Part shown: piece by piece, positions 23,544-63,337 of the stretch
How the letters are laid out: every line of letters starts with the position of its first letter
Position numbering within the stretch: the first letter of the stretch is position 1
Notes under the pieces: model-generated
Database searches by the model: none
Told to the model about the DNA's origin: nothing
The model's input: only the letters and a program-made list of their open reading frames with translations
Made by a program: the position numbers and the translations under genes
Assembly: GCF_011683915.1 (NCBI RefSeq)
Contig: NZ_JAAQPH010000006.1
Span: forward strand, 186,001-250,000
Direction of reading: 5' to 3'
Length of the DNA stretch: 64,000 nucleotides
Source: Pelagibius litoralis
GTDB lineage: Bacteria > Pseudomonadota > Alphaproteobacteria > Kiloniellales > Kiloniellaceae

Positions 23544-24342
23544 GGCCGTTCAGCACGTCGGCGGCCATGATACCGGTCAACTCTTCCGGGTGCAGCGGAT
23601 TCATGATCGCCGAGGTCATGCCGGCGCCGGCTGCCATGGCCAGGAAGACCGCGTTCAAGGCGTGGCGGTTGGGCAGGCCGAAGGAGATGTTGGAAGCGCC
23701 GCAGGTTGTGTTGACGCCCAGCTCCTCGCGCAGCTTGCGGACGATGGCAAAGGCCTGGCGGCCGGCCGTGCCCATGGCCCCGATGGGCATGACCAGGGGG
23801 TCGACGACGACGTCGGCGGCGGGGATGCCGTAGTCGGCGGCCCGCTCGACAATCTTCTTGGCGACTGCGTAGCGCACTTCCGGATCCTCGGAAATGCCGG
23901 TCTCGTCATTGGAGATGGCGACCACGGCGGCGCCGTGCTTTTTGACCAGAGGCAGAACCCGCTCCATCTGTTCCTCTTCGCCGGTCACCGAGTTCACCAG
24001 CGCCTTGCCCTGGTAGACACTGAGGCCGGCTTCCAGGGCCTCGACGATCGAGGAATCGATGGATAGAGGCAGATCGGTCAGGGACTGCACCAGCTTGATG
24101 GTCTGGGCCAGGATGGCAGGCTCGTCCGCAAGGGGGATGCCGGCATTGACGTCCAGCATGTGGGCGCCTGCGGCAACCTGAGCCAGGCAGTCGGCTTCGA
24201 CCCGGCTGAAATCGCCGGCGGCCATCTCGGCGGCCAGCAGCTTGCGCCCTGTCGGATTGATGCGCTCACCGATGATCCGGAAAGGGCGGTCGAAACCGAT
24301 CACCATTTCCCGGGTTGCCGAGCTTACAACCGTATCTGCCAT
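23437..24342 (-). CDS. Methyltetrahydrofolate:corrinoid methyltransferase (MtgA/AcsE type)
   Basis: A 301-residue pterin-binding TIM barrel. It begins FRIIGERINPTGRKLLA and has ADCLAQVAAGAHMLDVNAGIP, LPLSIDSS and GASNISFGLPNRHALN, all classic for the methyl-H4folate domains of MetH, AcsE and MtgA. It would transfer the methyl group between the corrinoid protein and tetrahydrofolate, feeding amine-derived methyls into C1 metabolism. The start at 24342 has AGGAG upstream. The C-terminal tail is unusual: about 20 very Arg/Glu-rich residues (EGEGAGRRERRRRRG) that lie in the stretch shared with the next gene. Confidence 0.88.
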   Translation of the reverse strand: MADTVVSSATREMVIGFDRPFRIIGERINPTGRKLLAAEMAAGDFSRVEADCLAQVAAGAHMLDVNAGIPLADEPAILAQTIKLVQSLTDLPLSIDSSIVEALEAGLSVYQGKALVNSVTGEEEQMERVLPLVKKHGAAVVAISNDETGISEDPEVRYAVAKKIVERAADYGIPAADVVVDPLVMPIGAMGTAGRQAFAIVRKLREELGVNTTCGASNISFGLPNRHALNAVFLAMAAGAGMTSAIMNPLHPEELTGIMAADVLNGHDKDCRAWIKKFREPAAEGTEGEGAGRRERRRRRG

Positions 24343-24531
24343 AGTTCCCTTACTCCTGTTCACCCGGGCGGTGTGCCGCTTTTGTCGGGGAATCCGCGCC
24401 GGAATGCCGTAACTCAGGCGCGATTAGCGCTTTTTCCGCTTCCCCCGGCTGACGCAGAGGCGACAGGGACTGGCCGATTCGCGCTAGATCGGCATCCGGC
24501 CGGCGTTTCCCGCCGTTTATCCGATGTGCGC

Positions 24532-26474: not shown

Positions 26475-27179
26475 TCAGGCGACGCCTTGCGTCTGGTTGT
26501 GACGGCGCTTCATGAACTCGGTCGCCGTCTCCACCGCCACCGCGGCATCGCGGCAGTAGGCATCGGCACCGACCGCTTCCGCGAAGGCTTCGTTCAGCGG
26601 CGCACCGCCGACCAGGACCACATAGTCGTCGCGAATGCCCATTTCCTTCATGGTGTCGATAACGACCTTCATGTAGGGCATGGTGGTGGTCAGCAGGGCC
26701 GACATACCCAGGATGTCGGGTTTGTGCTCCTCCAGGGCGGCCAGGTAGTTCTCGACCGGATTGTTGATACCCAGATCGATAACCTCGAAGCCGGCGCCTT
26801 CCATCATCATGGAGACCAGGTTCTTGCCGATGTCGTGGATATCGCCCTTTACCGTGCCGATCACCATGGTGCCGAGTTTCGGAGCACCGGTTTCGGCGAG
26901 CAGGGGGCGCAGAATAAACATGCCGCCCTTCATCGCGTTGGCGGCGAGCAGGACTTCCGGCACGAACAGAATGCCGTCGCGGAAATCAATGCCGACGATA
27001 CGCATGCCTTCCACCAGGGCCTCGGTCAGAACCCGATACGGTGTCCAGCCACGGCCGAGCAGAATGTTGACGCTTTCCTCAATCTCTTCCTTGAGGCCGT
27101 CATAGAGGTCGTCGTGCATCTGCTTGACGAGTTCGTCATCGTCAAGGCTGTTGAGATCAAGATCGTCGTCGTCTGCCAT
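26475..27179 (-). CDS. Corrinoid (methylcobamide) carrier protein, MtgC/MttC type
   Basis: A 234-residue two-domain corrinoid protein. A helical cap domain (about 20-95) precedes the cobalamin-binding Rossmann domain (about 100-225). The signature DIHDIGKN gives the cobalt-ligating His115 (D113-x-H-x-x-G118), followed by GMSALLTTTM and VLVGGAPLN. It accepts methyl groups from MttB-type enzymes and gives them to the methyl-H4folate methyltransferase. The N-terminus is extremely acidic (DDDDLDLNSLDDDE). I start at 27179 rather than 27257 because the longer frame reads through a tandem repeat. It leads the six-gene operon and is the only corrinoid carrier in the window, so all three MttB paralogues may share it. 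Confidence 0.92.
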   Translation of the reverse strand: MADDDDLDLNSLDDDELVKQMHDDLYDGLKEEIEESVNILLGRGWTPYRVLTEALVEGMRIVGIDFRDGILFVPEVLLAANAMKGGMFILRPLLAETGAPKLGTMVIGTVKGDIHDIGKNLVSMMMEGAGFEVIDLGINNPVENYLAALEEHKPDILGMSALLTTTMPYMKVVIDTMKEMGIRDDYVVLVGGAPLNEAFAEAVGADAYCRDAAVAVETATEFMKRRHNQTQGVA

Positions 27180-27190
27180 GCTCGTTTCCC

Positions 27191-27235
27191 TGTGGCAAAA
27201 GGCCCCGTGACAAAAGGCCCTGTGGCAAATGGGCA
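27191..27235. repeat. Three tandem 15-bp units upstream of the corrinoid protein gene
   Basis: Units TGTGGCAAAAGGCCC, CGTGACAAAAGGCCC and TGTGGCAAATGGGCA lie end to end, just 12 bases from the start codon of the corrinoid gene. They fall in its leader, so they could affect translation or bind a regulator. Their origin may simply be slippage. Confidence 0.7.
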
Positions 27236-27556
27236 GCCAGCCGCCCCACCCCATCATTAGTGGCGTTTGCGGGCCTTGATCGGCTTCACCTTCGGCGACA
27301 AATCGTGTCTGAATCGCGACATCGTAGAAAAAGAAGCGAAGTCAACGACTTGCGTCGTCTTTCCCTGTTCCGGGCCGAGGCTTTCTCCCCTCATTCCCGG
27401 CCGGCAGTGGGCAGGGCGGCGTCTTCAGGCAGTTGCGGTGCGGACTGTGTTCCTAATCGGTCTCCCGGCTCCCGGCTCCAAGCCGCTTGCCATTGCGGGG
27501 TGCCGATGGAAGGATCAATTCCCAGGGAGGTTGGATGCGTCGCTTTCGGGGATGGC
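27236..27556. other. Divergent intergenic region
   Basis: About 320 bases between the corrinoid operon and the reductase gene. It holds the promoters of both. The reductase frame stays open upstream to 27260, but that part lacks family similarity. An AT-richer patch at 27300-27345 (AAAAAGAAGCGAAG) is a candidate promoter area. No riboswitch is visible. Confidence 0.35.
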
Positions 27557-32618: not shown

Positions 32619-34157
32619 TTAAGCGTCGGTCAGGCAATTGCGCTCCAGAAGTTCGGTGGTGAACCAGCCGCTGTTGACCAGTTCCGCCAGGGCCTCGATA
32701 TCCGGTGCCAGCAAGCGGTCGTCGGCCAGGAAGGCCGCCCGTCCGCGAATGGCGTCCATGGCCCGGGTGAGTTTTGGGGAGGTTTTGAGAGGGCGGCGCA
32801 GGTCTATACCCTGGGCCGCCGCCATCAGCTCGATGGCCACGATGTAGCCGGCGTTCTCGGCGATGTCCGACAGGCGGCGGGCGCCATGGGTCGCCATGGA
32901 GACGTGGTCTTCCTGATTGGCCGAGGTCGGCAGGCTGTCGACGCTGGCGGGATGGCAGAGCATTTTGTTTTCCGAGGCCAAGGCCGCCGCGGTGACGTGG
33001 GCGATCATGAAGCCGGAATTGAGGCCGGGTTCGGCAACCAGGAAAGCGGGCAGGGTGCTCATGTGGGCATCCACCAGCAGCGCCATCCGGCGTTCCGACA
33101 GAGCGCCCACTTCCGACAGGGCCATGGCAATGCTGTCGGCGGCGAAGGCCACCGGTTCGGCATGGAAGTTTCCGCCGGAAATCACTTCGCCGGTGTCGGC
33201 AAAAACCAGGGGATTGTCGGAAACCGCATTGGCCTCGATGGTGAGGCTGCGGGCCGCGTTCCGAAAGACATCCATGATTGCGCCCATGACCTGTGGCTGG
33301 CAGCGCAGCGAGTAGGGGTCCTGAACCCGGTCGCAGTCGAGATGAGACTGCCGGATCTGGCTGTCCGCCAGCAGATCGCGCAGCCACGCCGCCACCTGAA
33401 TTTGGCCGTGGTGTCCCCGTAGTGCCTGAATTCTGGGGTCGAAGGGGGTATCGCTGCCCAGGGCCGCATCGACCGAGAGGGCGCCGGCGGTGATGGCGGC
33501 GCTGAAGATATCGGCGGCCAGGAACAGGCCGTGGAGCGCCAGGGCGGTTGAAACCTGGGTGCCGTTCAGAAGGGCGAGCCCTTCCTTGGCGGCAAGCTCG
33601 ATCGGCTCCAGCCCGCGCTCCGCCATGACCTCGCGCGCGGGGCGGGCCTCTCCGCCATGGCGGAGATGGCCTTCGCCCAGCAGCACGGCCGAGAGATGGG
33701 CCAGGGGCGCCAGGTCGCCGGAGGCGCCGACCGAACCCTTCGCCGGAATGACCGGATAAAGCGCCTCGTTCAAAAGCAGGATCAGGCGGTCGATCACCTC
33801 GGCGCGAATGCCGGAGTGCCCGCGCGCCAGGGCATTGATTTTCATCAGCAGGATCAGGCGGACGACGCGGTCATCCAAGGGCGCGCCGACGCCGGTGCAG
33901 TGCGACAACACCAGTCGGCTCTGCAGTTCGGCGACCTGGTCGGCGGCGATGGTCTGCCGCGCCAGGCTGCCGAAACCGGTTGTGATGCCGTAGACCCGGC
34001 GCCCCTCGGCGACCACCGCTGCGACACAGCCGGCCGAAGCGTTAATGGCCGCGTAGCAGGAAGGGTCCAGGGTGATCGGTTGCGCCTGCCGCCAAATCCC
34101 GCAGAGCCTCTCCAGCGTCAGCGTTCCAGCCTTCAGTATGTAGCGATCTCCGGTCAC
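32619..34157 (-). CDS. hutH: Histidine ammonia-lyase
   Basis: A 512-residue lyase that turns L-histidine into urocanate and ammonia, step one of the Hut pathway. The Ala145-Ser146-Gly147 triad in [16 protein letters not shown] forms the MIO prosthetic group. Tyr in VYGITTGFG (about 56) is the catalytic tyrosine region. The start is GTG at 34157 with GAGAGG upstream. A perfect HutC-type palindrome lies 20 bases before the start. The gene is about 14 kb from the other hut genes, so the shared operator matters for linking it to them. Confidence 0.93.
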
Positions 34158-34176: not shown

Positions 34177-34194
34177 AAGTTGTATATACAACTT
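34177..34194. promoter_or_regulatory. HutC operator upstream of hutH
   Basis: A perfect 18-bp palindrome, AAGTTGTATATACAACTT. It contains the TTGTATATACAA core expected for GntR-family HutC and is identical to the site before hutU (48944-48961). Its position close to the start codon would block transcription when HutC is bound. Confidence 0.88.
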
Positions 34195-47234: not shown

Positions 47235-48917
47235 TCAGTCCAGCATCGGCAGGTTGAGTCCCTGCTCTCTGGCACAGTCTTTTGCGATTTCGTAGCCGGC
47301 ATCGGCGTGGCGCATGACGCCGGTGGCCGGATCGTTGTGCAGCACCCGGGCGATGCGCCGGGCCGCGGCTTCGGTGCCGTCGCAGACGATCACCATGCCG
47401 GAGTGTTGCGAGTAGCCCATGCCGACCCCGCCGCCGTGATGCAGCGACACCCAGGTGGCGCCGCTGGCGGTGTTCAGCAAGGCGTTCAGCAGCGGCCAGT
47501 CGGAGACGGCGTCGGAGCCGTCCAGCATGCCCTCGGTCTCCCGGTTGGGGCTGGCGACGGAGCCGGAGTCCAGGTGATCGCGGCCGATGACGATAGGTGC
47601 GGAGAGCTCGCTGCTGGCGACCATCTCGTTGAAGGCGAGGCCCAGCTTGGCGCGCTGGCCCAGGCCGACCCAGCAGATCCGCGCCGGCAGGCCCTGGAAC
47701 TGAATGCGCTCACGCGCCATGTCCAGCCAGTTGTGCAGATGGGTGTCGTCGGGGATCAGTTCTTTTACCTTGGCGTCGGTCTTGTAGATGTCCTTCGGGT
47801 CGCCTGACAGCGCGGCCCAGCGGAAGGGTCCGATGCCGCGGCAGAAGAGGGGGCGGATGTAGGCCGGCACAAAACCGGGGAAGTCGAAGGCATGCTCGAC
47901 GCCCATATCCTGGGCCATCTGGCGGATGTTGTTGCCGTAGTCGAAGGTGGGGACGCCCTGGGCATGGAAGTCCAGCATGGCGCGCACCTGCACGGCCATG
48001 GATTCCTTGGCCGCCTGCACCACGGCGTCGGGATTCCTGGTCTTCTCGTCCTCCCAGCGCTGCAAGGTCCAACCCGCCGGCAGGTAGCCGTTCAGCGGAT
48101 CGTGGGCGGAGGTCTGGTCGGTTACGGCATCGGGCCGGATGCCCTGCTCCACCATCTCCGGAAAAATCTCTGCGGCGTTGCCGAGCAGCCCGACGGAGAC
48201 GGCTTCGTCTTTGGCCTTGGCGTCCTCGATGATCGCCATCGCTTCTTCCAGGGTTGCGGCCTGACGGTCGAGGTAGCCGGTCTTCAGGCGCATCTCGATA
48301 CGGCTGGGCTGGCATTCGACCGCCAGCATGGAGGCGCCGGCCATGGTCGCCGCCAGCGGCTGGGCGCCGCCCATGCCACCCAGGCCGCCGGTCAAAATCC
48401 AGCGGCCCTTCAGGTCGCCGCCATAGTGCTGGCGCCCGACCTCGACGAAGGTCTCGTAGGTGCCCTGCACGATGCCCTGGCTGCCGATGTAGATCCAGGA
48501 TCCGGCGGTCATCTGGCCGTACATCATGAGCCCGGCCTTATCGAGCTCGTTGAAGTGTTCCCAGTCGGCCCAGTGCGGCACCAGGTTGGAATTGGCGATC
48601 AGCACCCGCGGCGCATCGGCATGGGTTGGGAAGATGCCGACCGGCTTGCCGGACTGCACCAGCAGGGTCTCGTCGTCGTTCAGGTTCTGCAGGCAGGAAA
48701 CGATGGTGTCGAAGGACTTCCAGTCCCGTGCCGCCCGGCCGATACCGCCGTAGACCACAAGCTCTTCCGGCTTCTCCGCCACCTCCGGGTCGAGGTTGTT
48801 CATCAGCATGCGAAGCGGCGCTTCGGTCAGCCAGGACTTGGCGGAGAGTTCCGCGCCATGGGGGCTGCGGATGACGCGGGCGTTGTCACGCCTTGAGTTG
48901 GTGGGAGTATCGGACAT
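47235..48917 (-). CDS. hutU: Urocanate hydratase
   Basis: A 560-residue urocanase, step two of histidine breakdown, converting urocanate to imidazolonepropionate with tightly bound NAD+. Signatures are [35 protein letters not shown] and the active-site region [22 protein letters not shown] with its catalytic cysteine. The ATG at 48917 ([16 protein letters not shown]) matches HutU N-termini; an in-frame TTG at 48926 is less likely. A perfect 18-bp HutC palindrome lies 27 bases upstream. Confidence 0.95.
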
Positions 48918-48943
48918 GGCAGGCAAACTCCGGATCTGGACCG

Positions 48944-48961
48944 AAGTTGTATATACAACTT
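48944..48961. promoter_or_regulatory. HutC operator upstream of hutU
   Basis: The 18-bp palindrome AAGTTGTATATACAACTT, identical to the hutH site. It is placed to repress hutU and, by read-through, the TRAP genes. Confidence 0.9.
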
Positions 48962-49648: not shown

Positions 49649-50473
49649 ATGCGCTGTCTCTTGCAAAAAATCTCTCCGGTGGCGGCCTTGGCGATCTTGA
49701 TGCTGTCCGGCAATGCAACAGCAGCCGATCCCGGACTTGACCTGGTCGCCATTCCCGGCGGCAGTTTCGTGACCGGTGACGCGGGCGGCGATGCCAACGA
49801 GGTGCGGCGGCGCGTTAGCGTTGCGCCCTTCAGCCTGATGCGGCGTGAAGTGACCAATGCCCAGTTCGCCGCCTTCGCCGCGCTGAAGAACCATAGGACG
49901 GAGGCTGAATTGCGGGGCAGCGGCTATGTCTGGACAGACCGCTGGCGGTTGGCCGCTGGGGCCGACTGGCGGCGTCCACAGGGTCAGGGTTCTTCCATCG
50001 ACGGCCTGGACGCGCATCCTGTGGTGCAGGTCTCCGTCCGCGATGCCGAAGCTTTCTGCGCCCACCACGGCCTGCGTCTGCCCAGCGAAAACGAGTGGGC
50101 CTTCGCCGCCCGGGGGCCGCAGTCGCTGCGCTACGCCTGGGGCGACGTCCCGCCGGTGCAGGACGGCAAACAGCTTGTCGCCAACTTCGGGACCGAGCCC
50201 TGCTGCGCAGCGGATGACAGCGACGGCTATGCGCGCACGGCCCCGGTCGGCAGCTATCCCGCCGGGCGCTCGCCCTTCGCGCTCGACGACATGGCCGGCA
50301 ATGTCTGGGAGTGGACGGCCAGCCCGTTTCCCGGCAAGCCGGCGGAGCGGGTGATCCGCGGCGGCGGCTGGGGCAACAACCCCTACTGTCTGCGCGCCGC
50401 CTACCGCCACGGCAACCCGCCGGACATCAGCCTGGACATGGTCGGCTTTCGCTGCGCTGGGCCGCCAAGCTAA
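49649..50473 (+). CDS. Exported SUMF1/FGE-like protein lacking one active-site cysteine
   Basis: A 274-residue protein with a signal peptide (MRCLLQKISPVAALAILMLSG...) and a formylglycine-generating-enzyme (SUMF1) fold: VAIPGGSFVTGD, REVTNAQFAAF, LPSENEWAFAARG, DMAGNVWEWT and VIRGGGWGNNPYCLRAAYR...VGFRCAG. In FGE two cysteines about five residues apart form the copper site. Here the first position is not cysteine (GGGWGNNPYC), so formylglycine activity is doubtful. Non-FGE members of the fold serve other roles. The start is uncertain: 49649 is the best ATG for the signal peptide, and 49613 is also in frame. Confidence 0.78.
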   Translation: MRCLLQKISPVAALAILMLSGNATAADPGLDLVAIPGGSFVTGDAGGDANEVRRRVSVAPFSLMRREVTNAQFAAFAALKNHRTEAELRGSGYVWTDRWRLAAGADWRRPQGQGSSIDGLDAHPVVQVSVRDAEAFCAHHGLRLPSENEWAFAARGPQSLRYAWGDVPPVQDGKQLVANFGTEPCCAADDSDGYARTAPVGSYPAGRSPFALDDMAGNVWEWTASPFPGKPAERVIRGGGWGNNPYCLRAAYRHGNPPDISLDMVGFRCAGPPS

Positions 50474-51312: not shown

Positions 51313-51591
51313 GTGAACAAGCGTCTGGTCTTCATGCTCGCGGTCTGGGTCTGCGTCTATCCGCTGGTCACCCTGCTGCTGTCCGCTTTGGAATGGCTCG
51401 GCCTGCAGCTTCCCCTGGCCCTGCAAACCCTGTTGCTGACCGCCGTTGTGGTGCCCGCCATGGTGTTTGTTGTTGTCCCGGGCGTTTCGCGGTTTGTTGG
51501 CGGGCCCGTTAGTCCCGGTCCCGGTCTTCCGCCGAAAAGCGCCCGCCCAGGCGGTAGCGGTCGCCGGGGTGGAGCAGGCGGGCCCAGGTGA
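51313..51591 (+). CDS. Small membrane protein resembling the C-terminal module of membrane ABM proteins
   Basis: A 92-residue protein starting at GTG 51313. Two spans are clear: RLVFMLAVWVCVYPLVTLLLSALEW and PLALQTLLLTAVVVPAMVFVVVPGVSRFVG. This strongly resembles the C-terminal membrane module found fused to ABM domains in longer proteins. It would be a split version of such a fusion, with the ABM gene at 50547. The last 30 residues (PVSPGPGLPPKSARPGG...) are encoded opposite the 3' end of hutC, and the genes overlap by 83 bases. The start codon has a weak ribosome site. Confidence 0.6.
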   Translation: MNKRLVFMLAVWVCVYPLVTLLLSALEWLGLQLPLALQTLLLTAVVVPAMVFVVVPGVSRFVGGPVSPGPGLPPKSARPGGSGRRGGAGGPR

Positions 51592-52261
51592 CCGGTCGCT
51601 TGCCGGACCAGGTGTGGCGGCGCAGCAGCAGGCAGGGGGTGCCGGCGTCGATCTCCAGCAGGCGCCGTTCCTCATCGCTGGGCAGCACCGCCATCACCAT
51701 GTGCTCGGCTTCGCTTAAGGGAGCGGCCTGCATCAGATAGTGGTTGGGTGTGATCCTGGTGAAGTCCTGGTCCATGTAGGCCGGTGCCGCCGCCGGGCTG
51801 ACGTAGCGGTCTTCCAACTGGATCGGCTGGCCGTTTTCCCGGTGAACGATGATAGAATGAAACAGCGTGTCGCCGCGTTTCAGGCCTAGCAGCTTGGCCT
51901 CGAAGGCGCGGGCCTTCTCGCGGCGCAGCAGGCAGATCTCGGCGCTGTGGTCGTGGCCACGCGCGCGAATCTCGTCGGCGATGTTGTGGATCGAGAGGAT
52001 TTCGGACTGCGGCTTGGTCTGCGCCACAAAGGTGCCGGCGCCCTGGACCCGGTCCAGCCAGCCTTCGCCGGTCAGCTCCCGCAGGGCGCGGTTCACCGTC
52101 ATCCGGCTGACGCCCTGTTCGCGGGTCAGTTCGTTCTCCGAAGGCACGCGCCCGCCCTCCGGCCAGTCACCCGCCAGGATGCGGCTGACGATGTAGTCCT
52201 TCACCTGCTGATAGAGGGGCGGGTCGTCCTGCGCGGTGGGGGCGGGGGTGGAAGGGGCCAT
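51509..52261 (-). CDS. hutC: HutC, GntR-family repressor of histidine utilisation
   Basis: A 250-residue GntR regulator of the HutC subfamily. The winged helix (about 12-80) reads LYQQVKDYIVSRILAGDWPEGGRVPSENELTREQGVSRMTVNRALRELTGEGWLDRVQGAGTFVA. The UTRA ligand domain (about 95-240) follows, with IADEIRARGHDHSAEI and LHPGDRYRLGGRFSAED near the end. HutC represses hut genes and is released by urocanate. I start at 52261; the frame runs upstream across the operator without family residues. The palindrome TTGTATATACAA occurs five times near hut and related genes in this window and is its likely operator. Confidence 0.93.
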   Translation of the reverse strand: MAPSTPAPTAQDDPPLYQQVKDYIVSRILAGDWPEGGRVPSENELTREQGVSRMTVNRALRELTGEGWLDRVQGAGTFVAQTKPQSEILSIHNIADEIRARGHDHSAEICLLRREKARAFEAKLLGLKRGDTLFHSIIVHRENGQPIQLEDRYVSPAAAPAYMDQDFTRITPNHYLMQAAPLSEAEHMVMAVLPSDEERRLLEIDAGTPCLLLRRHTWSGKRPVTWARLLHPGDRYRLGGRFSAEDRDRD

Positions 52262-52356
52262 AGGGTAGGGTGGTTTCCTGGGTTGGGTTTGCTTGCGGCC
52301 TGAACTGTTCCAAGCAACTGCCTTTGCCTGCCATGAGACAAGCTTTACGGCAGAAA

Positions 52357-52370
52357 CTTGTATATACAAG
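52357..52370. promoter_or_regulatory. HutC operator between hutC and hutG
   Basis: The 14-bp palindrome CTTGTATATACAAG in the divergent hutC/hutG spacer, giving autoregulation of hutC and control of hutG. Confidence 0.88.
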
Positions 52371-52426
52371 ATGGGGTGTTCTGGCCAGCCTGACGCCGCT
52401 TGCGCCGGCCCTCAAAAGGATCGTCG

Positions 52427-53236
52427 ATGGACCTCTTTGAATTTTCACAAGGCTCCCTGCCGCTGCTGGTTTCCATGCCTCACAGCGGCACCCACATTCC
52501 GCCCGAACTGGCGGCGCGGATGACCGAAGAGGGTCTGGCGGTGCCGGATACGGATTGGCATATCCCCCGGCTCTACGACTTTCTCGGAGATCTCGACGTC
52601 TCGGTCATCCGGGCGACCCATTCGCGTTACGTCGCCGACCTGAACCGTGCGCCGGACGGTGCGGCGCTCTACGCCGGGGCCGACAATACGGAACTCTGCC
52701 CGATCTCGACCTTCGGCCGCCGGCCGATCTATCGCGACGGGCAGGCGCCGGCGGAAGCGGAGGTGGCGCAGCGGCGGTCGGATTACTGGCAGCCCTATCA
52801 CGACCGCATCGCCGCTGCGTTGGCAACGATGAAAGAGCGTCACGGCATCGCCCTGCTGTGGGATGCCCATTCGATCCGCAGCGAGGTGCCGCGCTTCTTC
52901 GAGGGGCGCCTGCCGGATCTCAACCTGGGTACGGCGGAGGGGGCGGCGGCGGCCCCGGACCTGCTGGGTATCCTAACGGCGGTGGCCCGCGAGGCCGAGG
53001 CGATCGGTTACAGCCATGCCGCCAACGGGCGCTTCAAGGGCGGCTACATCACGCGCCAATATGGCAAGCCCGACGCCGGTATTCACGCGGTGCAGTTGGA
53101 GCTTTCCTGGATCACCTACATGGACGAGGATCCGCCCTTTGCTTTCCGTGAAGACTTGGCGGCCAAGGTGCGCCCGGTGCTCTCCGGCCTCGTTCAGACC
53201 ATGCTGGCCTGGGCGGAGATGGAGGTGGATCTCTGA
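52427..53236 (+). CDS. hutG: N-formylglutamate deformylase
   Basis: A 269-residue zinc hydrolase that makes glutamate and formate, the last step of the five-step Hut pathway. Signatures: LLVSMPHSGTHIPPEL (metal His), DTDWHIPRLYDFL, WDAHSIRSEVPRFFEGRLPDLNLGT and YITRQYGKPDAGIHAVQLEL. The ATG at 52427 follows AAAAGGA. It is divergent from hutC with the operator between them. Confidence 0.93.
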   Translation: MDLFEFSQGSLPLLVSMPHSGTHIPPELAARMTEEGLAVPDTDWHIPRLYDFLGDLDVSVIRATHSRYVADLNRAPDGAALYAGADNTELCPISTFGRRPIYRDGQAPAEAEVAQRRSDYWQPYHDRIAAALATMKERHGIALLWDAHSIRSEVPRFFEGRLPDLNLGTAEGAAAAPDLLGILTAVAREAEAIGYSHAANGRFKGGYITRQYGKPDAGIHAVQLELSWITYMDEDPPFAFREDLAAKVRPVLSGLVQTMLAWAEMEVDL

Positions 53237-53843: not shown

Positions 53844-55076
53844 TCAGCCGCCCTGAACGACCTTCCCGTCCTTCACCACCTGATGGCAGGGGTTGAAGCC
53901 GATGCGGTAGGCGAGCTCGGCCGGGTGATCGATATCCCAGAGCACGAAGTCGGCGGCCTTACCGGTTTCCAGGGTGCCGTGGCTGTCCTGCAGGCCGAGG
54001 GCGCGGGCGCCGTTGCGGGTGATTCCGGCCAAGGCCTCCTCCGGTGTCAGGCGGAACAGGGTGCAGGCCATATTCAGCATCAGCAGCAGTGAGGTGGCCG
54101 GGGCCGAACCCGGGTTGCAGTCGCTGGCCAGCGCGATGGGCACTCTGGCCTGGCGGAAAACCTCCACCGGCGGCTGTTGGGTTTCGCGCAGGAAGTAAAA
54201 CGCGCCGGGCAGCAGCACCGCAACCGCGCCGCTGGCGGCCATGGCGCGCACGCCCTCGTCGCTGGTGTATTCCAGATGATCGGCGGAGAGTGCGCCGAAG
54301 CGGGCGGCAAGCGCGGCGCCCTTGAGGTCGGAGAGTTGATCGGCGTGCAGTTTCACAGGCAGGCCGGCGGCCCGGGCCGCCTCGAAGACGCGGGCCACCT
54401 GTTCCGGGTAAAAGGCGATGTGCTCGCAAAACGCGTCGACGGCATCGGCCAGGCCGGAGGCGGCGACCTCCGGCATCATGGCGATCACGGCATCGATATA
54501 GTCTTCCGGCCGGCCGTCGAATTCCGGCGGCAGCGCGTGGGCGCCCAGGAAGGTGGTCTTCACCGTCAGCGCTTCGTTCGCGCCCAGGCGCCGGGCAACG
54601 CGCAGCATCTTCAACTCGTGTTCCAGCGACAGGCCGTAACCGGACTTGATCTCGATGGTCGTCACCCCCTCGGCCAGGAAGGCGCGCAGGCGGGGCAGGG
54701 CGGCGTTGTAGAGGGTCTCCTCGTCGGCTTCGCGGGTCTGGGCGACGGTGAAGCGGATGCCGCCGCCGGCCCGCGCGATTTCCTCGTAGGAAGCCCCCTC
54801 CAGGCGCAGTTCGAACTCCCGCGCCCGATCGCCGCCATAGACCAGATGGGTGTGACAGTCGATCAGGCCGGGGGTGATCCAGCGGCCCGCGCAGTCGTGT
54901 ACCGCGCCGGCCAGATCCGCCGGCGCGCCGGGCAGCGCGCTTTGCGGCCCCAGCCAGGCAATCCTGCCGCCGGCCACGGCAAGCGCCGCCGCTTCGACGG
55001 CGCCGTAAGGTTTGGCGTGCGCCGGGTCGGCCACCATGGTGGCCAGGCGCGCGCCGGTCCAGAGCTCATCCCACAT
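53844..55076 (-). CDS. hutI: Imidazolonepropionase
   Basis: A 410-residue amidohydrolase that opens imidazolonepropionate to formiminoglutamate, step three of the Hut pathway. It has [38 protein letters not shown] (metal His pair), [33 protein letters not shown] and [21 protein letters not shown]. Start at 55076. It is divergent from hutF across a HutC palindrome. Confidence 0.95.
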
Positions 55077-55130: not shown

Positions 55131-55144
55131 GTTGTATATACAAC
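55131..55144. promoter_or_regulatory. HutC operator between hutI and hutF
   Basis: The 14-bp palindrome GTTGTATATACAAC in the divergent hutI/hutF spacer. Confidence 0.88.
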
Positions 55145-55211: not shown

Positions 55212-56603
55212 ATGACGAGCCATAAGCTTTTTGCAGAGCAGGCCTTTCTTTCAGACGGCTGGGCGGAAAATGTGCTGCTGGAGGTTGATGCGCGGGGTGA
55301 CCTTCGTCAGGTGACGCGAGATGCCGCGGCGGGCGACGCCACGCGGCTGGCCGGGCCGGTGCTGCCCGGCATGGCGAACCTGCACAGCCATGCCTTCCAG
55401 CGGGCCATGGCGGGCCTGGCCGAACATGTGGAGCCGGGCGGAGCAGGCGACGATTCCTTCTGGACCTGGCGGGAGGTAATGTACCGCTTCGTCGGCACCC
55501 TGACCCCCGAACAGGTGCAGGCCATCGCCGCCCAGCTCTATGTCGAGATGCTGAAGTCCGGCTACACGGCGGTCGGTGAATTTCACTATCTGCATCATGG
55601 CCCTGATGGGCAGCCTTACGACGATATCGCAGAGATGTCGCACCGGACCATCGCGGCGGCCAAGGCCACCGGGATCGGCATTACCCAGCTTCCGGTGCTC
55701 TATGGTTACGGCGGTTTCGGAGCTCAGCAAGCCGGTGAAGGGCAGCGGCGTTTTCTCAATAATCCCAATCGCTTGTTGGGCATTGTTGAGGCGCTTAAGA
55801 TATCGCATGAGGGCGATCCTCAGATTCGGGTCGGTCTGGCGCCGCACTCCCTGCGGGCGGTTACGCTTGAGACATTGGATGAAGCGGTGACGGGCCTGAC
55901 TGCACTCGATCCCGGGGCGCCGATCCATCTCCATATCGCCGAGCAGGTGAAGGAGGTGGAGGATTGTCTGGCCTGGTCCGGCAGGCGCCCGGTCGAATGG
56001 CTGCTGGAGAACCGCCCGCCCGACCGCCGCTGGTGTCTGGTGCATGCGACCCACATGAGTGCGGCAGAGACGAAGGGGTTGGCGGCCTCCGGCGCGGTCG
56101 TCGGGCTCTGTCCGACGACGGAGGCAAACCTGGGCGACGGCCTGTTCCCGGCGGCAGACTTTCTGGATGCCGGCGGCGCCTGGGGCATCGGTTCCGACAG
56201 CCACATCTCGGTCAGCCCTGTGGAGGAACTGCGCTGGTTCGAGTACGGCCAGCGCCTTGCCACCCGGCGGCGCAACGTGCTGGCGGGAGAGGGCGCGGCT
56301 GCCGCGCTCGGCCACCGCCTCTACAGCGAAGCGCTCGCCGGCGGCGCCCAGGCCCTCGGCCGTCCCATCGGCGCACTGGAGGCGGGCCGCCGCGCCGACC
56401 TCGTGGTCCTCGACCCGGCGACGCCGGCACTCTCGCAGATGCCCGTCGAGCGCCTGCTCGACGCGACGATCTTCGCCGGCAACTGCAATCCCGTGCGCGA
56501 CGTCATGGTCGGCGGCGACTGGGTCGTCTGCGAAGGGTCGCACAGGGACGAGCGCAAGGTGCTGGAAAACTACCGCGTCGTATTGAAGTCGCTGCTGTCC
56601 TAG
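55212..56603 (+). CDS. hutF: Formimidoylglutamate deiminase
   Basis: A 463-residue amidohydrolase that converts formiminoglutamate to N-formylglutamate and ammonia, the branch that defines the five-step Hut pathway with HutG. Signatures: GPVLPGMANLHSHAFQRAMAGLAE (metal ligands), SGYTAVGEFHYLHH, HIAEQVKEVEDC and GIGSDSHISVSPVEELRWFEYGQRL. The stop TAG (56601-56603) is the first triplet of a family B repeat, so the repeat fixes the C-terminus. Confidence 0.95.
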   Translation: MTSHKLFAEQAFLSDGWAENVLLEVDARGDLRQVTRDAAAGDATRLAGPVLPGMANLHSHAFQRAMAGLAEHVEPGGAGDDSFWTWREVMYRFVGTLTPEQVQAIAAQLYVEMLKSGYTAVGEFHYLHHGPDGQPYDDIAEMSHRTIAAAKATGIGITQLPVLYGYGGFGAQQAGEGQRRFLNNPNRLLGIVEALKISHEGDPQIRVGLAPHSLRAVTLETLDEAVTGLTALDPGAPIHLHIAEQVKEVEDCLAWSGRRPVEWLLENRPPDRRWCLVHATHMSAAETKGLAASGAVVGLCPTTEANLGDGLFPAADFLDAGGAWGIGSDSHISVSPVEELRWFEYGQRLATRRRNVLAGEGAAAALGHRLYSEALAGGAQALGRPIGALEAGRRADLVVLDPATPALSQMPVERLLDATIFAGNCNPVRDVMVGGDWVVCEGSHRDERKVLENYRVVLKSLLS

Positions 56604-57240: not shown

Positions 57241-57272
57241 AAAAGGCGGAGCCACATAAAGCTCCGCCTTTT
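57241..57272 (-). terminator. Rho-independent terminator
   Basis: A perfect stem, AAAAGGCGGAGC / GCTCCGCCTTTT, with an 8-base loop and an extra A-run on the left that reads as a T-run on the minus strand. It lies 24 bases after the stop of the flavoprotein gene (57296) and can also stop plus-strand transcription. Confidence 0.88.
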
Positions 57273-57295
57273 CGTTTACTCCAGCGTGCCGTTTG

Positions 57296-58630
57296 CTAAA
57301 CCCAGGGGCAGTGGCTGTTGGAGGCGCCGAAGGTGCGGCCTTGGGCGAAGCGGGTGAAGGCGAAGGGCTCCAGCTCCGCCACCCGGTTGTCGCCGGCCAG
57401 GATCTTTGCCACCAGCTTGCCGACCCCGGTCATTTTGAAGCCGTGGTTTGAATCGGCGATCATGTAGGCGTTGGGCAGGATCCAGTCGAAGATCGGCACG
57501 TTGTCCGGCGTGAAGGCGCCGATGCCGCCGTTGGGCCGGTCCTTGAAGTTCTTCCGGTGTCCTTTGAAGCGCGGCATCAGATAGCCCATGGCGGCGGTCA
57601 GGTAGTCGGCGAACCAGTCGTCGGCCTGGTAGTCCTTGTTGTCCCAGCCGTAGGGATCGACCGCGGCCTTGGGGCCGATCTTGATGGGGATGGTGCCGCC
57701 CTGCACGCCGGCGCGCTCCATCCGCTCGGCGCCGTTCTTCCAGTAGACATAGAGATGGTCGGAGATCTCGGCACCGGTTTCCTCGTTCATCACCGGGGTG
57801 TTCATCATCTCGACGTGGAGTACCGGCGGGTCCAGGTCGCGGTTATCGCGGTAGGGCTCATCGACATAGACCTCGCCCTCCAGCAGCCGCCAGTAGGTCC
57901 ACATGTCCAGGCTGTTGGTGCCGCCGTCGGGATACTTGGCCTCGATGGTGTCGGGCTTGCCCAGCATCTCCCAGTGCTTGCCGATCCAGGCGCCGTAGCA
58001 GAGCACGGCGACGTCGCAGGCGATGTCGCCCTCGTTGGTGTGCAGCTTGGAGATGCGTCCGTTGGTGACGTCGTAGCCGGTAACCTCGATGCCGGAGAGG
58101 ATCTGCACGCCGTGCTGAACGCACTTCTCGGCCAGGCCGGCGACGGCCTGGCGGGTGCCGGCATAGCCCGAGGGTTTTTCGTGCAGCACGACACCGACGT
58201 TCTCGGTGTTGAAGTCGGGCCAGTATCCTTTCAGGAAAGACTTGGCCTCCTTGCCGACATAAACGTCGGAGCGGTAGTCGGCGGCGTTCTGACTCTTGGT
58301 CATGCGCTCGTAGTCGGCGATCTGGTTTTCCTCGCCGACGGAGATGTAGCCGACCTGCTGGAAGCCGAAGCGCACCGGGTCTTCCATCCAGACGTCGACG
58401 GAATGACGCAGGATCGGATGCAGCGCTTCGGTCATGTAGAAGTTGCGCACGCAGCCGCAGGCGATGCCGCTGGCCCCGGCGCCGGGTGCTGTCTTGTCGA
58501 GGACGACGATGTCTTTGCCGGACCCCTTGCCGCGAGCCTCCAGCTCCATGGCCAGGTGCCAGGCAGTGGAGAGGCCGTGGATGCCGGCCCCGGCGATGAC
58601 ATAGGTTTTTGAATCCGGAAGTACGGTCAT
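57296..58630 (-). CDS. DAO-type FAD oxidoreductase (SoxB/DadA-like), HutC-linked
   Basis: A 444-residue flavoprotein. The N-terminus has YVIAGAGIHGLSTAWHLAMELEARG (FAD motif GAGIHG), then VVLDKTAPGAGASGIACGCVRNFYM and, near the end, MIADSNHGFKMTGVGKLVAKIL. It resembles the beta subunit of sarcosine oxidase and D-amino-acid dehydrogenases but has no alpha, delta or gamma partners. It would oxidise an N-methyl or amino group of a small amine. It is divergent from an MttB paralogue across 376 bases that hold a HutC-type palindrome. By inference it removes methyl groups left after the MttB step, perhaps from a methylated histidine. A strong terminator follows it. Confidence 0.85.
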   Translation of the reverse strand: MTVLPDSKTYVIAGAGIHGLSTAWHLAMELEARGKGSGKDIVVLDKTAPGAGASGIACGCVRNFYMTEALHPILRHSVDVWMEDPVRFGFQQVGYISVGEENQIADYERMTKSQNAADYRSDVYVGKEAKSFLKGYWPDFNTENVGVVLHEKPSGYAGTRQAVAGLAEKCVQHGVQILSGIEVTGYDVTNGRISKLHTNEGDIACDVAVLCYGAWIGKHWEMLGKPDTIEAKYPDGGTNSLDMWTYWRLLEGEVYVDEPYRDNRDLDPPVLHVEMMNTPVMNEETGAEISDHLYVYWKNGAERMERAGVQGGTIPIKIGPKAAVDPYGWDNKDYQADDWFADYLTAAMGYLMPRFKGHRKNFKDRPNGGIGAFTPDNVPIFDWILPNAYMIADSNHGFKMTGVGKLVAKILAGDNRVAELEPFAFTRFAQGRTFGASNSHCPWV

Positions 58631-59006
58631 GGTGGTGGTATCCTTGTCAGGTCTGATCGACGGATCGTTCCCCCCTGGCGCCCACCTTGACCGTATGGCC
58701 CGCTAGGAAGACCGCGTCTGTCTTCCCGTCTGCGCCGGGCGGAATCGATCCGACCCTTTTCGGGTGCCGCCGGGGCGGTTGTTGACCGCCAGAACCCTGC
58801 GCGTTTAGGCCGGAAACGACACCACCTGTCGTCTATACACGAGACTTTCCGGACTTGTATATACAATTTGATAGGGAAGCAGATCAGCCGCGGCGGCCCG
58901 CCACGATTCTGGCGCAACGGGGCCGGGAGCCCGTGATGCACGCCGCCGGGCAGGCTGTCCTGTCGCACAAACATAAAGGCCTCACCATGAAGGCCGAGGA
59001 GGTACC
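58631..59006. promoter_or_regulatory. Divergent promoter region with HutC-type site
   Basis: 376 bases between the flavoprotein and the MttB-like gene. The core palindrome TTGTATATACAA lies at 58855-58866 (flanks CTTG...CAAT). It is weaker outside the core than the hutH and hutU sites. A half-site-like GTCTATACACGAGAC precedes it at 58831-58845. No gene is seen in the rest. Confidence 0.6.
58855..58866. promoter_or_regulatory. HutC-type operator shared by flavoprotein and MttB paralogue 3
   Basis: The 12-bp core TTGTATATACAA, identical to the core of the other four hut operators. It is in an intergenic spacer, roughly 140 bases from the MttB start and 225 from the flavoprotein start. Confidence 0.75.
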
Positions 59007-60551
59007 ATGGCACGGGATACGGGGCGCCGCGGCGGACGGCGCGGGCAGGGGGAACGCAGGCCGGCAGCCGGCCTGAAGCAGCTCGACTGGGTGTTGCCGG
59101 AAAACCCCTACGACCCCATAAAAGTGCTGCGCGACGATCAGGTTGAAATGATCACCGACACCGCCTTCCGCATTCTGGAAGAGGTCGGCATGGACTTCCT
59201 CCACTCCGAAGCCCGGGAAATCCTCGCCAAGGCCGGCGCCAGGGTGGAGCCGGGCAGCCAGCGTGTTTACCTCGACCGCGGTCTGGTGAAGGAGGCGCTG
59301 GCCTCGGCCCCTTCCAGTTTCACCCTGCATGCCCGCAACCCGGCCCACAATCTGGAGATCGGCGGGCGCAGGATCGTGTTCGGCAGCGTCGGCTCGGCCC
59401 CCAATTCATCCGATATGGACGGCGGGCGCCGTCCCGGCAACTACCGGGACTACAAGAACTTCCTGCGCCTGACCCAGGCCTTCAACATCGTGCACTTCGT
59501 GGCCGGCTATCCGGTGGAGCCGGTCGACCTGCACCCTGCGACCCGGCACCTGGATGCGCTGCGGGATTGTCTGACGCTGACCGACAAGGCTTTCCATGCC
59601 TATTCCCTCGGCCGGGCCCGCATTCTCGACGGCCTGGAGATCGTGCGTATCGGTCACGGCATGACGGAGACTGAACTGGCCGCCAAACCCTGCCTGTTCA
59701 CCATCGTCAACACCTCCTCGCCGCTGCGCCTCGACGGACCGATGATCGAAGGCATCATCGAAATGGCGCGGCGCAATCAGGTGGTGATCATCACGCCGTT
59801 CACGCTGTCGGGTGCCATGAGCCCGGCGACGGTGGCCGGGGCCCTGGCCCAGCAGCATGCCGAGGCCATGGCGGGCATGGCCTTTACCCAGATGGTCAAC
59901 CCGGGTGCGCCGGTGATCTACGGCGGCTTCACCTCCAACGTCGATATGAAATCGGGCGCGCCGGCCTTCGGCACGCCGGAATACAGCCGCGCCGCCCTGG
60001 CCGGCGGACAGCTGGCCCGGCACCTGGGCATTCCCTATCGCTCCTCCAACGCCAACGCGGCCAACTGCGTCGATGCCCAGGCGGCTTACGAATCCCAGAT
60101 GTCGATCTGGGGCGCGGTCATGGGCCACGCCAATTTCATGATGCACGGCGCCGGCTGGCTGGAGGGCGGTCTCTGTGCCTCCTTCGAGAAATTCGTGCTG
60201 GATGTGGAGATGCTGCAGATGATGACGGAGTTCCTGCGGCCCCTGGAGGTCAGCGAGGACTCCATCGGTCTGGAAGCGATCCGCGAGGTCGGGCCCGGCG
60301 GTCATTTCTTCGGCGCCGCCCATACGCTGGAGCGCTATGAGACTGCCTTCTACGATCCTATCCTGTCGGACTGGCGCAACTTCGAAAACTGGCAGGACGG
60401 CGGCAGCGAAACCGCGACCCAGCGCGCCAACCGCCTGTACAAATCCGTGCTGGAAGACTTCACGCCGCCGCCCCTCGACCCGGCGATAAAGGACGAGCTC
60501 GACGACTTCGTCGCGCGCCGCACGGCGGAGGGGGGTGCAGAAGCAGCATAG
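59007..60551 (+). CDS. MttB-superfamily methyltransferase, paralogue 3 (HutC-linked)
   Basis: A 514-residue COG5598 methyltransferase, closest by eye to paralogue 1: ITDTAFRILEEVGMDFLHSEA, VIITPFTLSGAMSPATVAGALAQQHAEAMAG, SGAPAFGTPEYSRAALAGG, HGAGWLEGGLCASFEKFVLD and AIREVGPGGHFFGAAHTLERYE. No amber codon is present. AGGAGG lies ideally before the ATG at 59007. A HutC-type palindrome in its promoter region and a divergent amine-oxidising flavoprotein suggest a histidine-related quaternary amine as substrate, for example hercynine. This is inference; glycine betaine or another betaine remains possible. It needs the corrinoid protein at 26475-27179. Confidence 0.9.
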   Translation: MARDTGRRGGRRGQGERRPAAGLKQLDWVLPENPYDPIKVLRDDQVEMITDTAFRILEEVGMDFLHSEAREILAKAGARVEPGSQRVYLDRGLVKEALASAPSSFTLHARNPAHNLEIGGRRIVFGSVGSAPNSSDMDGGRRPGNYRDYKNFLRLTQAFNIVHFVAGYPVEPVDLHPATRHLDALRDCLTLTDKAFHAYSLGRARILDGLEIVRIGHGMTETELAAKPCLFTIVNTSSPLRLDGPMIEGIIEMARRNQVVIITPFTLSGAMSPATVAGALAQQHAEAMAGMAFTQMVNPGAPVIYGGFTSNVDMKSGAPAFGTPEYSRAALAGGQLARHLGIPYRSSNANAANCVDAQAAYESQMSIWGAVMGHANFMMHGAGWLEGGLCASFEKFVLDVEMLQMMTEFLRPLEVSEDSIGLEAIREVGPGGHFFGAAHTLERYETAFYDPILSDWRNFENWQDGGSETATQRANRLYKSVLEDFTPPPLDPAIKDELDDFVARRTAEGGAEAA

Positions 60552-60587
60552 CTGGTTCTGCACGGGGTCGGTTAGTCTCGGCCCGTC

Positions 60588-61475
60588 ATGAACAATTTAT
60601 CCGACAACTTCCGCGGCGCCCTTTTCATGTCCATCTCCATGGCGGGCTTTGCGCTGAACGACGCGACCGTCAAGTTGGCTTCCGCGGACCTCGGCCTGTT
60701 TCAGATTATCCTGCTGCGCGGCGTTTTCGCCTGCCTGTTGCTCACCCTGCTGGCCTGGCATCGCCGCAGCCTGTTCTATCGGCCATCGCGCGGCGACACG
60801 ATGGTGCTGATCCTGAGGGCGACGGGCGAGGTCGGTGGCACGCTGTGTTTCCTGACCGCGCTTTTCAACATGCCGATCGCCAACGCGACCGCCATCCTTC
60901 AGGCGTTGCCCCTGGCCGTCACCCTGGCGGCCGCCCTGTTCCTGGACGAGGCCGTGGGCTGGCGGCGCTACAGCGCCATCGCGGTGGGCTTCATCGGTGT
61001 GCTGATTATCGTCCGGCCGGGCGGGGAGGGCTTTAACGCCTACGCCCTCTGGGCCGTGGCGGCTGTCGCCTTCATCGTGCTGCGCGATCTTTCAACCCGG
61101 CTTCTTTCCGCCGGCGTTCCCACGCTGTTCACCGCGCTCACCTCCGGCCTGGCGATTACCGTTGTCGGCGGCGTGCTGGCGCTGACCGAGGACTGGGCGC
61201 CGGTCAGCGGACCGTCGCTCGCGCTGACGGCGGGCGCCGCCTTCTTCCTGCTCTTTGCCTATATCTTCGGTGTCAGGACCATGCGCATGGGCGAGGTCAG
61301 CTTCATCTCACCCTTCCGCTACACTGTCCTCATCTGGGCGATGATCCTGGGCTTCCTGCTGTTCGGCGAAGTTCCCGACGGCTGGACCCTGGTCGGCAGC
61401 CTCGTCGTGGTCGGTATGGGCATCTACACCTTCTACCGCGAACGGCGGCTGTTGAAGGCGGCTGCGGCGCAATGA
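60588..61475 (+). CDS. EamA (DMT superfamily) transporter
   Basis: A 295-residue membrane protein with ten predicted spans in two EamA halves. Blocks: GALFMSISMAGFALNDATVKLA, LILRATGEVGGTLCFLTALFNMPIANATAILQALPLAVTLAAALFLDEAVGWRRYSAIAVGFIGVLIIVRPG, and near the C-terminus FISPFRYTVLIWAMILGFLLFGEVPDGWTLVGSLVVVGMGIYTFYRERR. It moves small metabolites, in or out. It lies 36 bases after the MttB paralogue on the same strand, so it is likely co-transcribed and may carry the same substrate. Confidence 0.87.
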   Translation: MNNLSDNFRGALFMSISMAGFALNDATVKLASADLGLFQIILLRGVFACLLLTLLAWHRRSLFYRPSRGDTMVLILRATGEVGGTLCFLTALFNMPIANATAILQALPLAVTLAAALFLDEAVGWRRYSAIAVGFIGVLIIVRPGGEGFNAYALWAVAAVAFIVLRDLSTRLLSAGVPTLFTALTSGLAITVVGGVLALTEDWAPVSGPSLALTAGAAFFLLFAYIFGVRTMRMGEVSFISPFRYTVLIWAMILGFLLFGEVPDGWTLVGSLVVVGMGIYTFYRERRLLKAAAAQ

Positions 61476-62395: not shown

Positions 62396-63337
62396 TTATG
62401 CCGTTCCCGGATGGACCGGGGCTTCCTTGGCGCGGAAGAAATAGCGCCGGAAGATGGTACCGTAACCGGAGAACACGTAGCCCCCGTTGGCGGCCTGGAA
62501 GAGGGCGCGCTGTTCGCGGTAGAGCGCCGGGATGCGGTACCAGGGCAGGCCCGGCTTGGCGTGGTGGACGATGTGCAGGTTGTTGTTGAGGAACAGCAGC
62601 GACATCAGCGGCCCGGCCTCGACGATGGCCGAGCGGTGGGTCGGAACCGGCTCCGCGCGATGCTCCAGGAAGGAGCGCAGCAGGGTCAGGCCGATGCCGG
62701 GATAGACGAAGAACAGCAGGTATTGCCAGAGCGGCAGGCCGCAGACGGCGAGCACCCAGGTAAGCACCAGAACGACACCCAGCCCATGAAGCGCCCAGGC
62801 CTTGGCGTGGGAGAAATCGCCCCGCAGCAGGCGCTTGCCTTCGGCACCGTAGAGCAGCCAGAAGCAGCGCAGCGGCCCCAACAGCAGGCGCCCGGCAAGG
62901 CTGTTCTGCACCCAGAGGAAGGTCCGGACGAAGGGGCCGGCGGTGGCCCAGGCCTCAGCGGTAAGATAGAAGGATTCCGGATCGTCCAGCGGATCGGTGA
63001 GGCTGTCGTCGTTGTGGTGTGCCAGATGGCTTTCGCGATAGAGGCGGAAGGGGATCCAGAGCCAGAGGCTCGGCAGCACCAGGGCTTCGTTCAGCCAGGC
63101 GAAAGGCGTCGGGTGGCCGTGCACCACCTCATGCTGCAGTGAGCCGTGCCAGGCCACCAGAAAGGTGCCGGCCGGCAGCAGGACCCACCAGGCCAGGGCG
63201 CCGTGGAACCAGGTAAGGGCGCCGAAGGCAGCGTAAATCACAACCACGACCGCCAGGGTCGGGAACTCGAACTTTCTGGAAACGTGTTTTCTCAGAACGG
63301 GGGCAGAGGCCTGCCCCGACACAAAACGATTACTCAA
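62396..63337 (-). CDS. Membrane fatty-acid desaturase
   Basis: A 313-residue membrane di-iron desaturase/hydroxylase. All three histidine boxes are present: HGSLQHEVVHGH (near 64-75), HLAHH (near 103) and HIVHH (near 255), with hydrophobic spans between them. It would act on fatty acids, lipids or other hydrophobic substrates, using oxygen. The start is a TTG at 63337 with GGGGGAT upstream; a GTG at 63322 is the alternative. The first 25 residues are polar. It is divergent from an XRE regulator. Confidence 0.87.
   Translation of the reverse strand: MSNRFVSGQASAPVLRKHVSRKFEFPTLAVVVVIYAAFGALTWFHGALAWWVLLPAGTFLVAWHGSLQHEVVHGHPTPFAWLNEALVLPSLWLWIPFRLYRESHLAHHNDDSLTDPLDDPESFYLTAEAWATAGPFVRTFLWVQNSLAGRLLLGPLRCFWLLYGAEGKRLLRGDFSHAKAWALHGLGVVLVLTWVLAVCGLPLWQYLLFFVYPGIGLTLLRSFLEHRAEPVPTHRSAIVEAGPLMSLLFLNNNLHIVHHAKPGLPWYRIPALYREQRALFQAANGGYVFSGYGTIFRRYFFRAKEAPVHPGTA

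Follow-up and report, generated by a model that had tools for sequence, protein, structure and literature searches.

A flavoprotein and MttB-type methyltransferase pair predicted to belong to the HutC regulon of Pelagibius litoralis may act on N-methylated histidine

Introduction

Glycine betaine is demethylated by the MtgB-MtgC-MtgD system of Desulfitobacterium and Ruegeria pomeroyi, which consists of an MttB-superfamily enzyme, a corrinoid protein, a pterin methyltransferase and a RamA-type activator (PMC12478193). The same kinds of protein are encoded, likewise in an aerobic alphaproteobacterial setting, in a 64,000-nucleotide stretch of the genome of Pelagibius litoralis (the window; bases 186001-250000 of contig NZ_JAAQPH010000006.1). 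In contrast to MtgB (PDB 9yce), to which it is 38% identical, the window's MttB-superfamily protein MttB3 is tied to histidine utilization (hut) genes and a HutC-type operator, not to dimethylglycine genes. The operator lies between MttB3 and a divergent gene for a flavin adenine dinucleotide (FAD) protein, DAO, and this gene pair is the subject of the present analysis.

Breakdown of proline betaine (stachydrine) begins with a Rieske oxygenase, with flavoproteins acting afterwards. The scheme proposed here resembles it in that a quaternary amino-acid betaine would be demethylated by one enzyme and then by a flavoprotein, and differs in that a corrinoid methyltransferase is proposed to act first. 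Hercynine is the precursor of ergothioneine. As an initial sequence-only reading of the window had supposed, no description of hercynine demethylation, or of entry of hercynine into the hut pathway, was found in the open PMC literature, subscription papers being outside the scope of the search. Urocanate or histidine relieves repression by HutC, as established in other systems. The HutC regulons described for Proteobacteria (PMC5343134) share with the window the repressor and its hut targets; at the present locus an MttB/DAO promoter joins them. The terms methyltransferase, betaine, MttB, hercynine and ergothion- are absent from the main text of that survey.

Results

A predicted HutC operator between DAO and MttB3

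We lean towards the view, judged from sequence, that the DAO/MttB3 pair is an accessory branch of the hut regulon, channelling N-methylated histidine into the histidine degradation pathway. The palindrome TTGTATATACAA occurs exactly five times in the window, with every copy either at the promoter of a hut gene or in the DAO/MttB3 spacer (Table 1), in agreement with the sequence-only reading. Allowing two mismatches yielded no further site in the window (0.15 expected from shuffles). The five are the sole exact copies in the 6,028,128 bases of the P. litoralis genome (G000), which has a single one-mismatch copy on another contig. TTGTATATACAA contains the core TGTA-N2-TACA, the HutC consensus given in PMC12977541. 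A degenerate second site, TCGTCTATACACGA, lies 25 bp upstream of the main spacer site, centre to centre. An alignment of the P. litoralis spacer with those of G017, G018 and G021 shows 12 of 12 positions unchanged in the main site and 12 of 14 in the TCGTCTATACACGA site, compared with 153 of 375 among the other columns. G045, from another family, carries TCGTATATACAA and TTGTATATACAA in its DAO/MttB3 spacer at the same 25 bp spacing, and TTGTATAGACAA upstream of its hutC-hutU genes. The window and genome counts, together with this conservation, rule out a chance occurrence of the palindrome.

MttB3 orthologues (E ≤ 1e-215, 63-100% identity) were found in 33 of the 61 genomes of the order searched; G019 carries a partial MttB3 only and was not counted. 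Eight of them (P. litoralis, G006, G017, G018, G020, G021, G045 and G051), spanning four lineages (g1, g4, f4 and f5; f1-f7 are the family labels and g1 and g4 lineage labels of the order-wide comparison), have an exact copy of the palindrome in the 400 bp before MttB3; it was not found within that distance in the remaining 25. By predicted operator identity, its conservation and the hut linkage described below, membership of DAO and MttB3 in the HutC regulon, as first proposed by the sequence-only reading, is well supported as a prediction.

We do not favour the palindrome as the site of a general one-carbon regulator, as its copies in the genus lie at hut genes or transporter operons, one of the latter ending in histidinol dehydrogenase; the additional copies in the genus were assigned in part. 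The same palindrome precedes ABC (ATP-binding cassette) transporter operons that end in a histidinol-dehydrogenase-like gene in G017, G020 and G019 (L158:2-5071, L159:5795-11000 and L132:1995-7402), with a PF00815 match in L158, the one copy tested, hinting at use of histidinol or another imidazole within the HutC regulon. It also stands upstream of branched-chain-type ABC transporter operons near hutU in another genus of the family (L141:14323, L144:9680, L160:5263 and L163:11841).

Linkage of MttB3 to hut genes across six families

The neighbourhoods of all 33 MttB3 orthologues were read up to contig ends or over a 20 kb stretch. Note that G051 is the same record as L012/G023, and G042 the same as G024; L206, which is L012 in reverse complement, and L205, which is contained in L063, were each counted once with their counterparts, and L028, a Pelagibius-labelled metagenome-assembled genome of the same genus that shares contig positions with G019, was treated as the same genome.

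The sequence-only reading had suggested a search for co-occurrence of this MttB clade with hut genes. In 13 of the 33 orthologues, from six families, the nearest hut gene is no more than 10 kb from MttB3: P. litoralis, G016, G017, G018 (at 8.7 kb) and G022 (f1), G028 (f2), G039 and G040 (f3), G041 and G042 (f4), G053 and G054 (f6), and G060 (f7). In another ten the contig ends near MttB3 (G005, G006, G013, G014, G020, G021, G038, G045, G051 and G052). With a guessed chance of 2% per genome, meant to be generous, and ignoring kinship, 13 of 33 would have a probability of ~3e-14; the six families are the fairer count. Beyond the order, a 5 kb contig labelled Acidimicrobiia carries an MttB3 relative (67%), after which a match to another NCBIfam subtype of hutF follows within ~90 bp. 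In a contrast set of 66 loci, many with short flanks, tblastn detected hut genes in two (L015 and L063). In a quick MttB tree the hut-linked members are scattered within the clade of the order, requiring eight changes if contig-broken rows are scored as unlinked and four if they are omitted. Thus the linkage is either old and lost or was gained repeatedly, and the tree does not decide between the two.

A lyase resembling ergothionase accompanies the pair in relatives

The substrate of ergothionase is a histidine betaine. A second gene of the histidine ammonia-lyase (HAL) family, HAL2, lies near the DAO gene in G021 and G018; searched against the PDB, it matches ergothionase best (E 3e-72 and 2e-74), with the true HutH enzymes ranking lower. 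HAL2 lies within ~5 kb of MttB3 in 6 of the 33 orthologues. It is divergent from MttB3 at a distance of 107-251 bp in G052, G053, G054 and G060, with hut genes on the same stretch in three of these four (the contig of G052 ends). In G021, DAO and HAL2 lie on one strand with a gap of 78 bp. In G061, of another family, the two genes overlap by 4 bp, and an ornithine-cyclodeaminase/mu-crystallin (OCD) family gene, hutF, hutI and hutG come next, 1.4 kb further on; MttB3 was not found in this genome at the orthologue cut-off. G051 has a partial HAL2 2.9 kb from hutF-I-G-C-U. Each pairwise combination of MttB3, DAO and HAL2 is thus present near hut genes or the operator, and we read the three as one set.

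HutH carries the ASG triad of the 4-methylidene-imidazol-5-one (MIO) group. The MIO glycine is gone in all seven full-length HAL2 proteins and in all seven other HAL2-like rows. In the numbering of the Pseudomonas enzyme, the seven full-length proteins have Ile or Leu in place of Tyr280, as in ergothionase, and retain Tyr53, Gln277, Arg283, Phe329 and Glu414. HAL2 thus resembles ergothionase (PDB 6s7j/6s7q) in its family, its loss of the MIO glycine and its exchange of Tyr280. Ergothionase itself is reported to be without MIO (PMC13405746), and a lyase of this kind would suit a substrate whose amine is already methylated. We claim no common origin of HAL2 and ergothionase, as the latter forms a very long branch of unsure placement in the HAL-family tree. 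On balance, the hut linkage, the operator and the linkage of the ergothionase-like HAL2 to MttB3 and DAO in or beside hut clusters indicate that an N-methylated histidine is probably the substrate.

The divergent pair and the MttB paralogues of the genome

The DAO protein (P0002) stays under the cut-off in all eight NCBIfam families that it matches (best soxB, 55 bits vs a cut-off of 529), failing those of the named oxidases SoxB, MTOX and ThiO. Eight other genomes among the 61 searched carry orthologues with 73-93% identity, of which one is partial. On the 20 kb stretch read in G029 and G030, a 76% orthologue has neither hut genes nor MttB3 beside it. An AlphaFold model of DAO, with a mean pLDDT (predicted local distance difference test) of 49 and built from only four sequences, was not used. 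MttB3 (P0001) scores 683.7 bits with PF06253 (cut-off 25) and is a 514-residue open reading frame with no internal stop or in-frame amber codon; an internal stop was found in none of the 33 orthologues. Its model (pLDDT 89) has the MttB/MtgB fold, with template modelling scores of 0.88-0.96 to 4yyc, 9yce and 2qne. The EamA gene starts 36 bp after MttB3 and is possibly on the same transcript; it adjoins MttB3 in genus relatives at 59-79% identity and was not seen beside MttB3 in the other stretches read. The domain matches (Table 1) agree with the families that the sequence-only reading had assigned to these three proteins.

The nearest solved relatives of MttB3 are 4yyc (39%) and MtgB (9yce; 38%), and some MttB3 homologues (49-64%) lie by genes resembling dimethylglycine dehydrogenase (DMGDH) that are 25-27% identical to the one in the window. 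MttB3 might therefore be a glycine-betaine-type demethylase, with the flavoprotein as a dimethylglycine or sarcosine oxidase and the HutC link serving nitrogen scavenging. We regard this as improbable. Among the seven MttB paralogues of the genome, MttB1 (5267-6889; 41% identical to MttB3) adjoins the DMGDH-like gene of the window (2358-4925), which a homocysteine methyltransferase gene adjoins in turn, and by this context MttB1 is the better MtgB candidate. That DMGDH-like gene is more than 50 kb from MttB3, where the dimethylglycine/sarcosine context of MtgB is absent; sarcosine-oxidase-type (SoxB-type) genes lie within 10 kb of an MttB3 homologue in L012 and a few other cases. In addition, the recurrent hut and HAL2 linkage would be left without explanation.

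A further MttB paralogue (36369-37946; 31% identical to MttB3) is located inside the hut cluster without a palindrome of its own, and is kept by hutH and the gene for a methyl-accepting chemotaxis protein at 86-91% in seven genus relatives. When plasmids were searched with MttB3, 1 of 196 records matched at 60-80% identity and the others at lower values.

Observations that weigh against an N-methylated histidine substrate

Several observations weigh against the interpretation that the DAO/MttB3 pair serves N-methylated histidine. Some concern HAL2. It was not found in the P. litoralis genome, where a search returned HutH only. Compared with ergothionase, to which HAL2 is 31-33% identical, it is no closer than to HutH (31-35%), and all seven full-length proteins have Arg at the position of HutH His83, a histidine retained in both HutH and ergothionase (6s7j). 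HAL2-like genes (54-55%) lie away from hut genes in G046-G048, as do MIO-less HAL homologues in G001, G002, G005, G047, G048 and L229 of G051, so that a tie to histidine does not hold for the MIO-less lyase family in general. A second lyase/MttB pair is found in L229 (9517-12625), where a further MIO-less HAL homologue precedes an MttB homologue (55%) by 107 bp in the same orientation.

The departure of HAL2 from both enzymes at the His83 position, with ergothionase as its best solved relative, would also fit another methylated imidazole as substrate of the same three enzyme types, such as ergothioneine (the thiol form), a ring-methylated histidine or an imidazolium. We consider this unlikely, if less so than the glycine-betaine alternative: the clusters hold ordinary HutU, HutI, HutF and HutG for sulfur-free urocanate, and no separate gene for thiourocanate was recognised in them, no search having been aimed at one.

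Other contrary observations concern the operator. Only a degenerate TCGTATATGCAA is present at the MttB3 locus of G016 and G022, in which no DAO orthologue above 42% identity was found. The exact operator precedes MttB3 in none of the eight hut-linked genomes outside the genus. TTGTMTATACAA was found in none of 7 of the 11 genomes scanned genome-wide, among them the hut-linked G028, G040, G041, G054 and G060 from outside the genus, and G042 (as G024) has one copy elsewhere than at MttB3. Regulation of MttB3 in these genomes, if any, is therefore different or unseen. In L012, a variant of the site also precedes a SoxB-type gene that is 53% identical to the sarcosine-oxidase-type subunit encoded in the window; this could mean a wider one-carbon regulon.

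Linkage is likewise incomplete. No hut gene lies within ~7-10 kb on either side of MttB3 in 10 of the 33 orthologues (G001-G004, G009, G010, G012, G027, G032 and G036; 63-67% identity), and other MttB and DAO homologues are near ABC transporters and other unrelated genes. Moreover, two genes that recur in several clusters are superfluous to the simple demethylation scheme and are not explained by it: an OCD family gene between hutF and MttB3 or HAL2 (L204:5236-6237, L208:6172-7173, L223:13862-14860), and an S-adenosylmethionine (SAM)-dependent methyltransferase gene near MttB3 (L119:395-1189, L214:11689-12480, L205:11277-12047), whose L119 copy, the one compared, best matches the NCBIfam glycine/sarcosine N-methyltransferase at 62 bits vs a cut-off of 350. 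Their recurrence by hutF, MttB3 or HAL2 would fit genes of the HutC regulon whose target is derived from histidine but carries no N-methyl group on the alpha amine, or which supply one-carbon units rather than use a substrate. This is the least probable of the three alternatives. To our knowledge, all non-pyrrolysine MttB members described so far take the methyl group from quaternary amines. One of them has gamma-butyrobetaine as methyl donor (PMC8604678).

Other features of the window

The hut genes are dispersed over 32.6-56.6 kb, interspersed with genes for a TRAP (tripartite ATP-independent periplasmic) transporter and a chemoreceptor (Table 1). The true start of HutC is probably later than annotated here, as the HutC profile begins at residue 53. 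Between hutU and hutC (49613-50473) lies a gene for a single-domain FGE/EgtB/SenA-like protein in which the DinB part of EgtB was not matched; it is present at 74-81% in G017, G019, G020 and G021 and absent from the stretches of G016, G018 and G022. Genes for a fatty-acid-desaturase-like protein, an XRE-like regulator, a formaldehyde-activating GFA protein and a phosphonate-type binding protein (62396-63337 and L177:438-3150) form a block that adjoins MttB3 in many genomes of the order.

Table 1. Coordinates of the features discussed, numbered from the first nucleotide of the window.
Feature	Position	Strand	Basis
DAO-family FAD protein (P0002), proposed oxidative demethylase of di-/mono-methylhistidine	57296..58630	-	PF01266, 116 bits
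MttB superfamily methyltransferase without pyrrolysine (P0001, MttB3), proposed betaine:corrinoid methyltransferase	59007..60551	+	PF06253, model
EamA-type transporter	60588..61475	+	PF00892
Predicted HutC-type operator TTGTATATACAA between divergent DAO and MttB3	58855..58866		exact match, conserved in relatives
Second, degenerate predicted operator TCGTCTATACACGA	58829..58842		sequence, conserved in relatives
Predicted operator TTGTATATACAA at hutH	34180..34191		exact match
Predicted operator TTGTATATACAA at hutU	48947..48958		exact match
Predicted operator TTGTATATACAA between hutC and hutG	52358..52369		exact match
Predicted operator TTGTATATACAA between hutI and hutF	55132..55143		exact match
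HutH, MIO triad ASG intact	32619..34157	-	TIGR01225, 692 bits
HutU urocanase	47235..48926	-	family match
HutC repressor	51509..52369	-	TIGR02018, 316.6 bits (cut-off 220)
HutG	52400..53236	+	TIGR02017
HutI	53844..55076	-	TIGR01224
HutF	55212..56603	+	TIGR02022
RACo/RamA-like corrinoid activator	21414..23543	-	PF14574
Pterin-binding methyltransferase, candidate corrinoid:folate methyltransferase	23437..24363	-	PF00809
Corrinoid (B12-binding) protein, candidate methyl acceptor	26475..27257	-	PF02310, PF02607

Discussion

Gene content, operator and linkage can be seen in the sequence; from them we infer the catalytic steps, their order and the role of the flavoprotein as follows. HutC would repress both the DAO and the MttB3 promoter until urocanate appears. 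MttB3 would then transfer one methyl group to the corrinoid protein from a quaternary betaine of histidine, most likely hercynine; the pterin methyltransferase would pass this group on to folate, and RACo would reactivate the corrinoid. The DAO flavoprotein would remove the remaining N-methyl groups as formaldehyde, and the resulting histidine would enter HutH-U-I-F-G. In relatives, HAL2, acting with or instead of the flavoprotein, would probably eliminate the methylated amine to give urocanate directly.

The corrinoid carrier, folate methyltransferase and RamA-like activator that the sequence-only reading had placed in the window are indeed present, but 31-38 kb from MttB3 in a separate cluster without TTGTATATACAA. 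These parts are weak proof of the pathway, as any of the seven MttB paralogues of the genome could use them, and the corrinoid protein is possibly shared.

As to the substrate, the sequence-only reading had proposed a hercynine pathway. An N-methylated histidine gained support from the linkage of HAL2, which that reading did not have, while hercynine itself is the best single candidate. The ordinary HutU, HutI, HutF and HutG of the clusters favour it over ergothioneine.

More tentatively, the three enzyme types may form a modular pathway for N-methylated histidine across this alphaproteobacterial order, and perhaps in an actinobacterial lineage, comprising a hercynine:corrinoid methyltransferase of the MttB type, a flavoprotein dedicated to demethylating methylhistidine and a histidine-betaine lyase devoid of MIO, in some cases under HutC. 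If this is correct, no earlier catabolic route for hercynine, and no earlier MttB enzyme acting on the betaine of an aromatic amino acid, is known to us. One clade of the large and mostly unassigned MttB superfamily would gain a substrate, HutC regulons would be extended to a betaine, and what becomes of histidine betaine in marine bacteria would have a directly testable answer.

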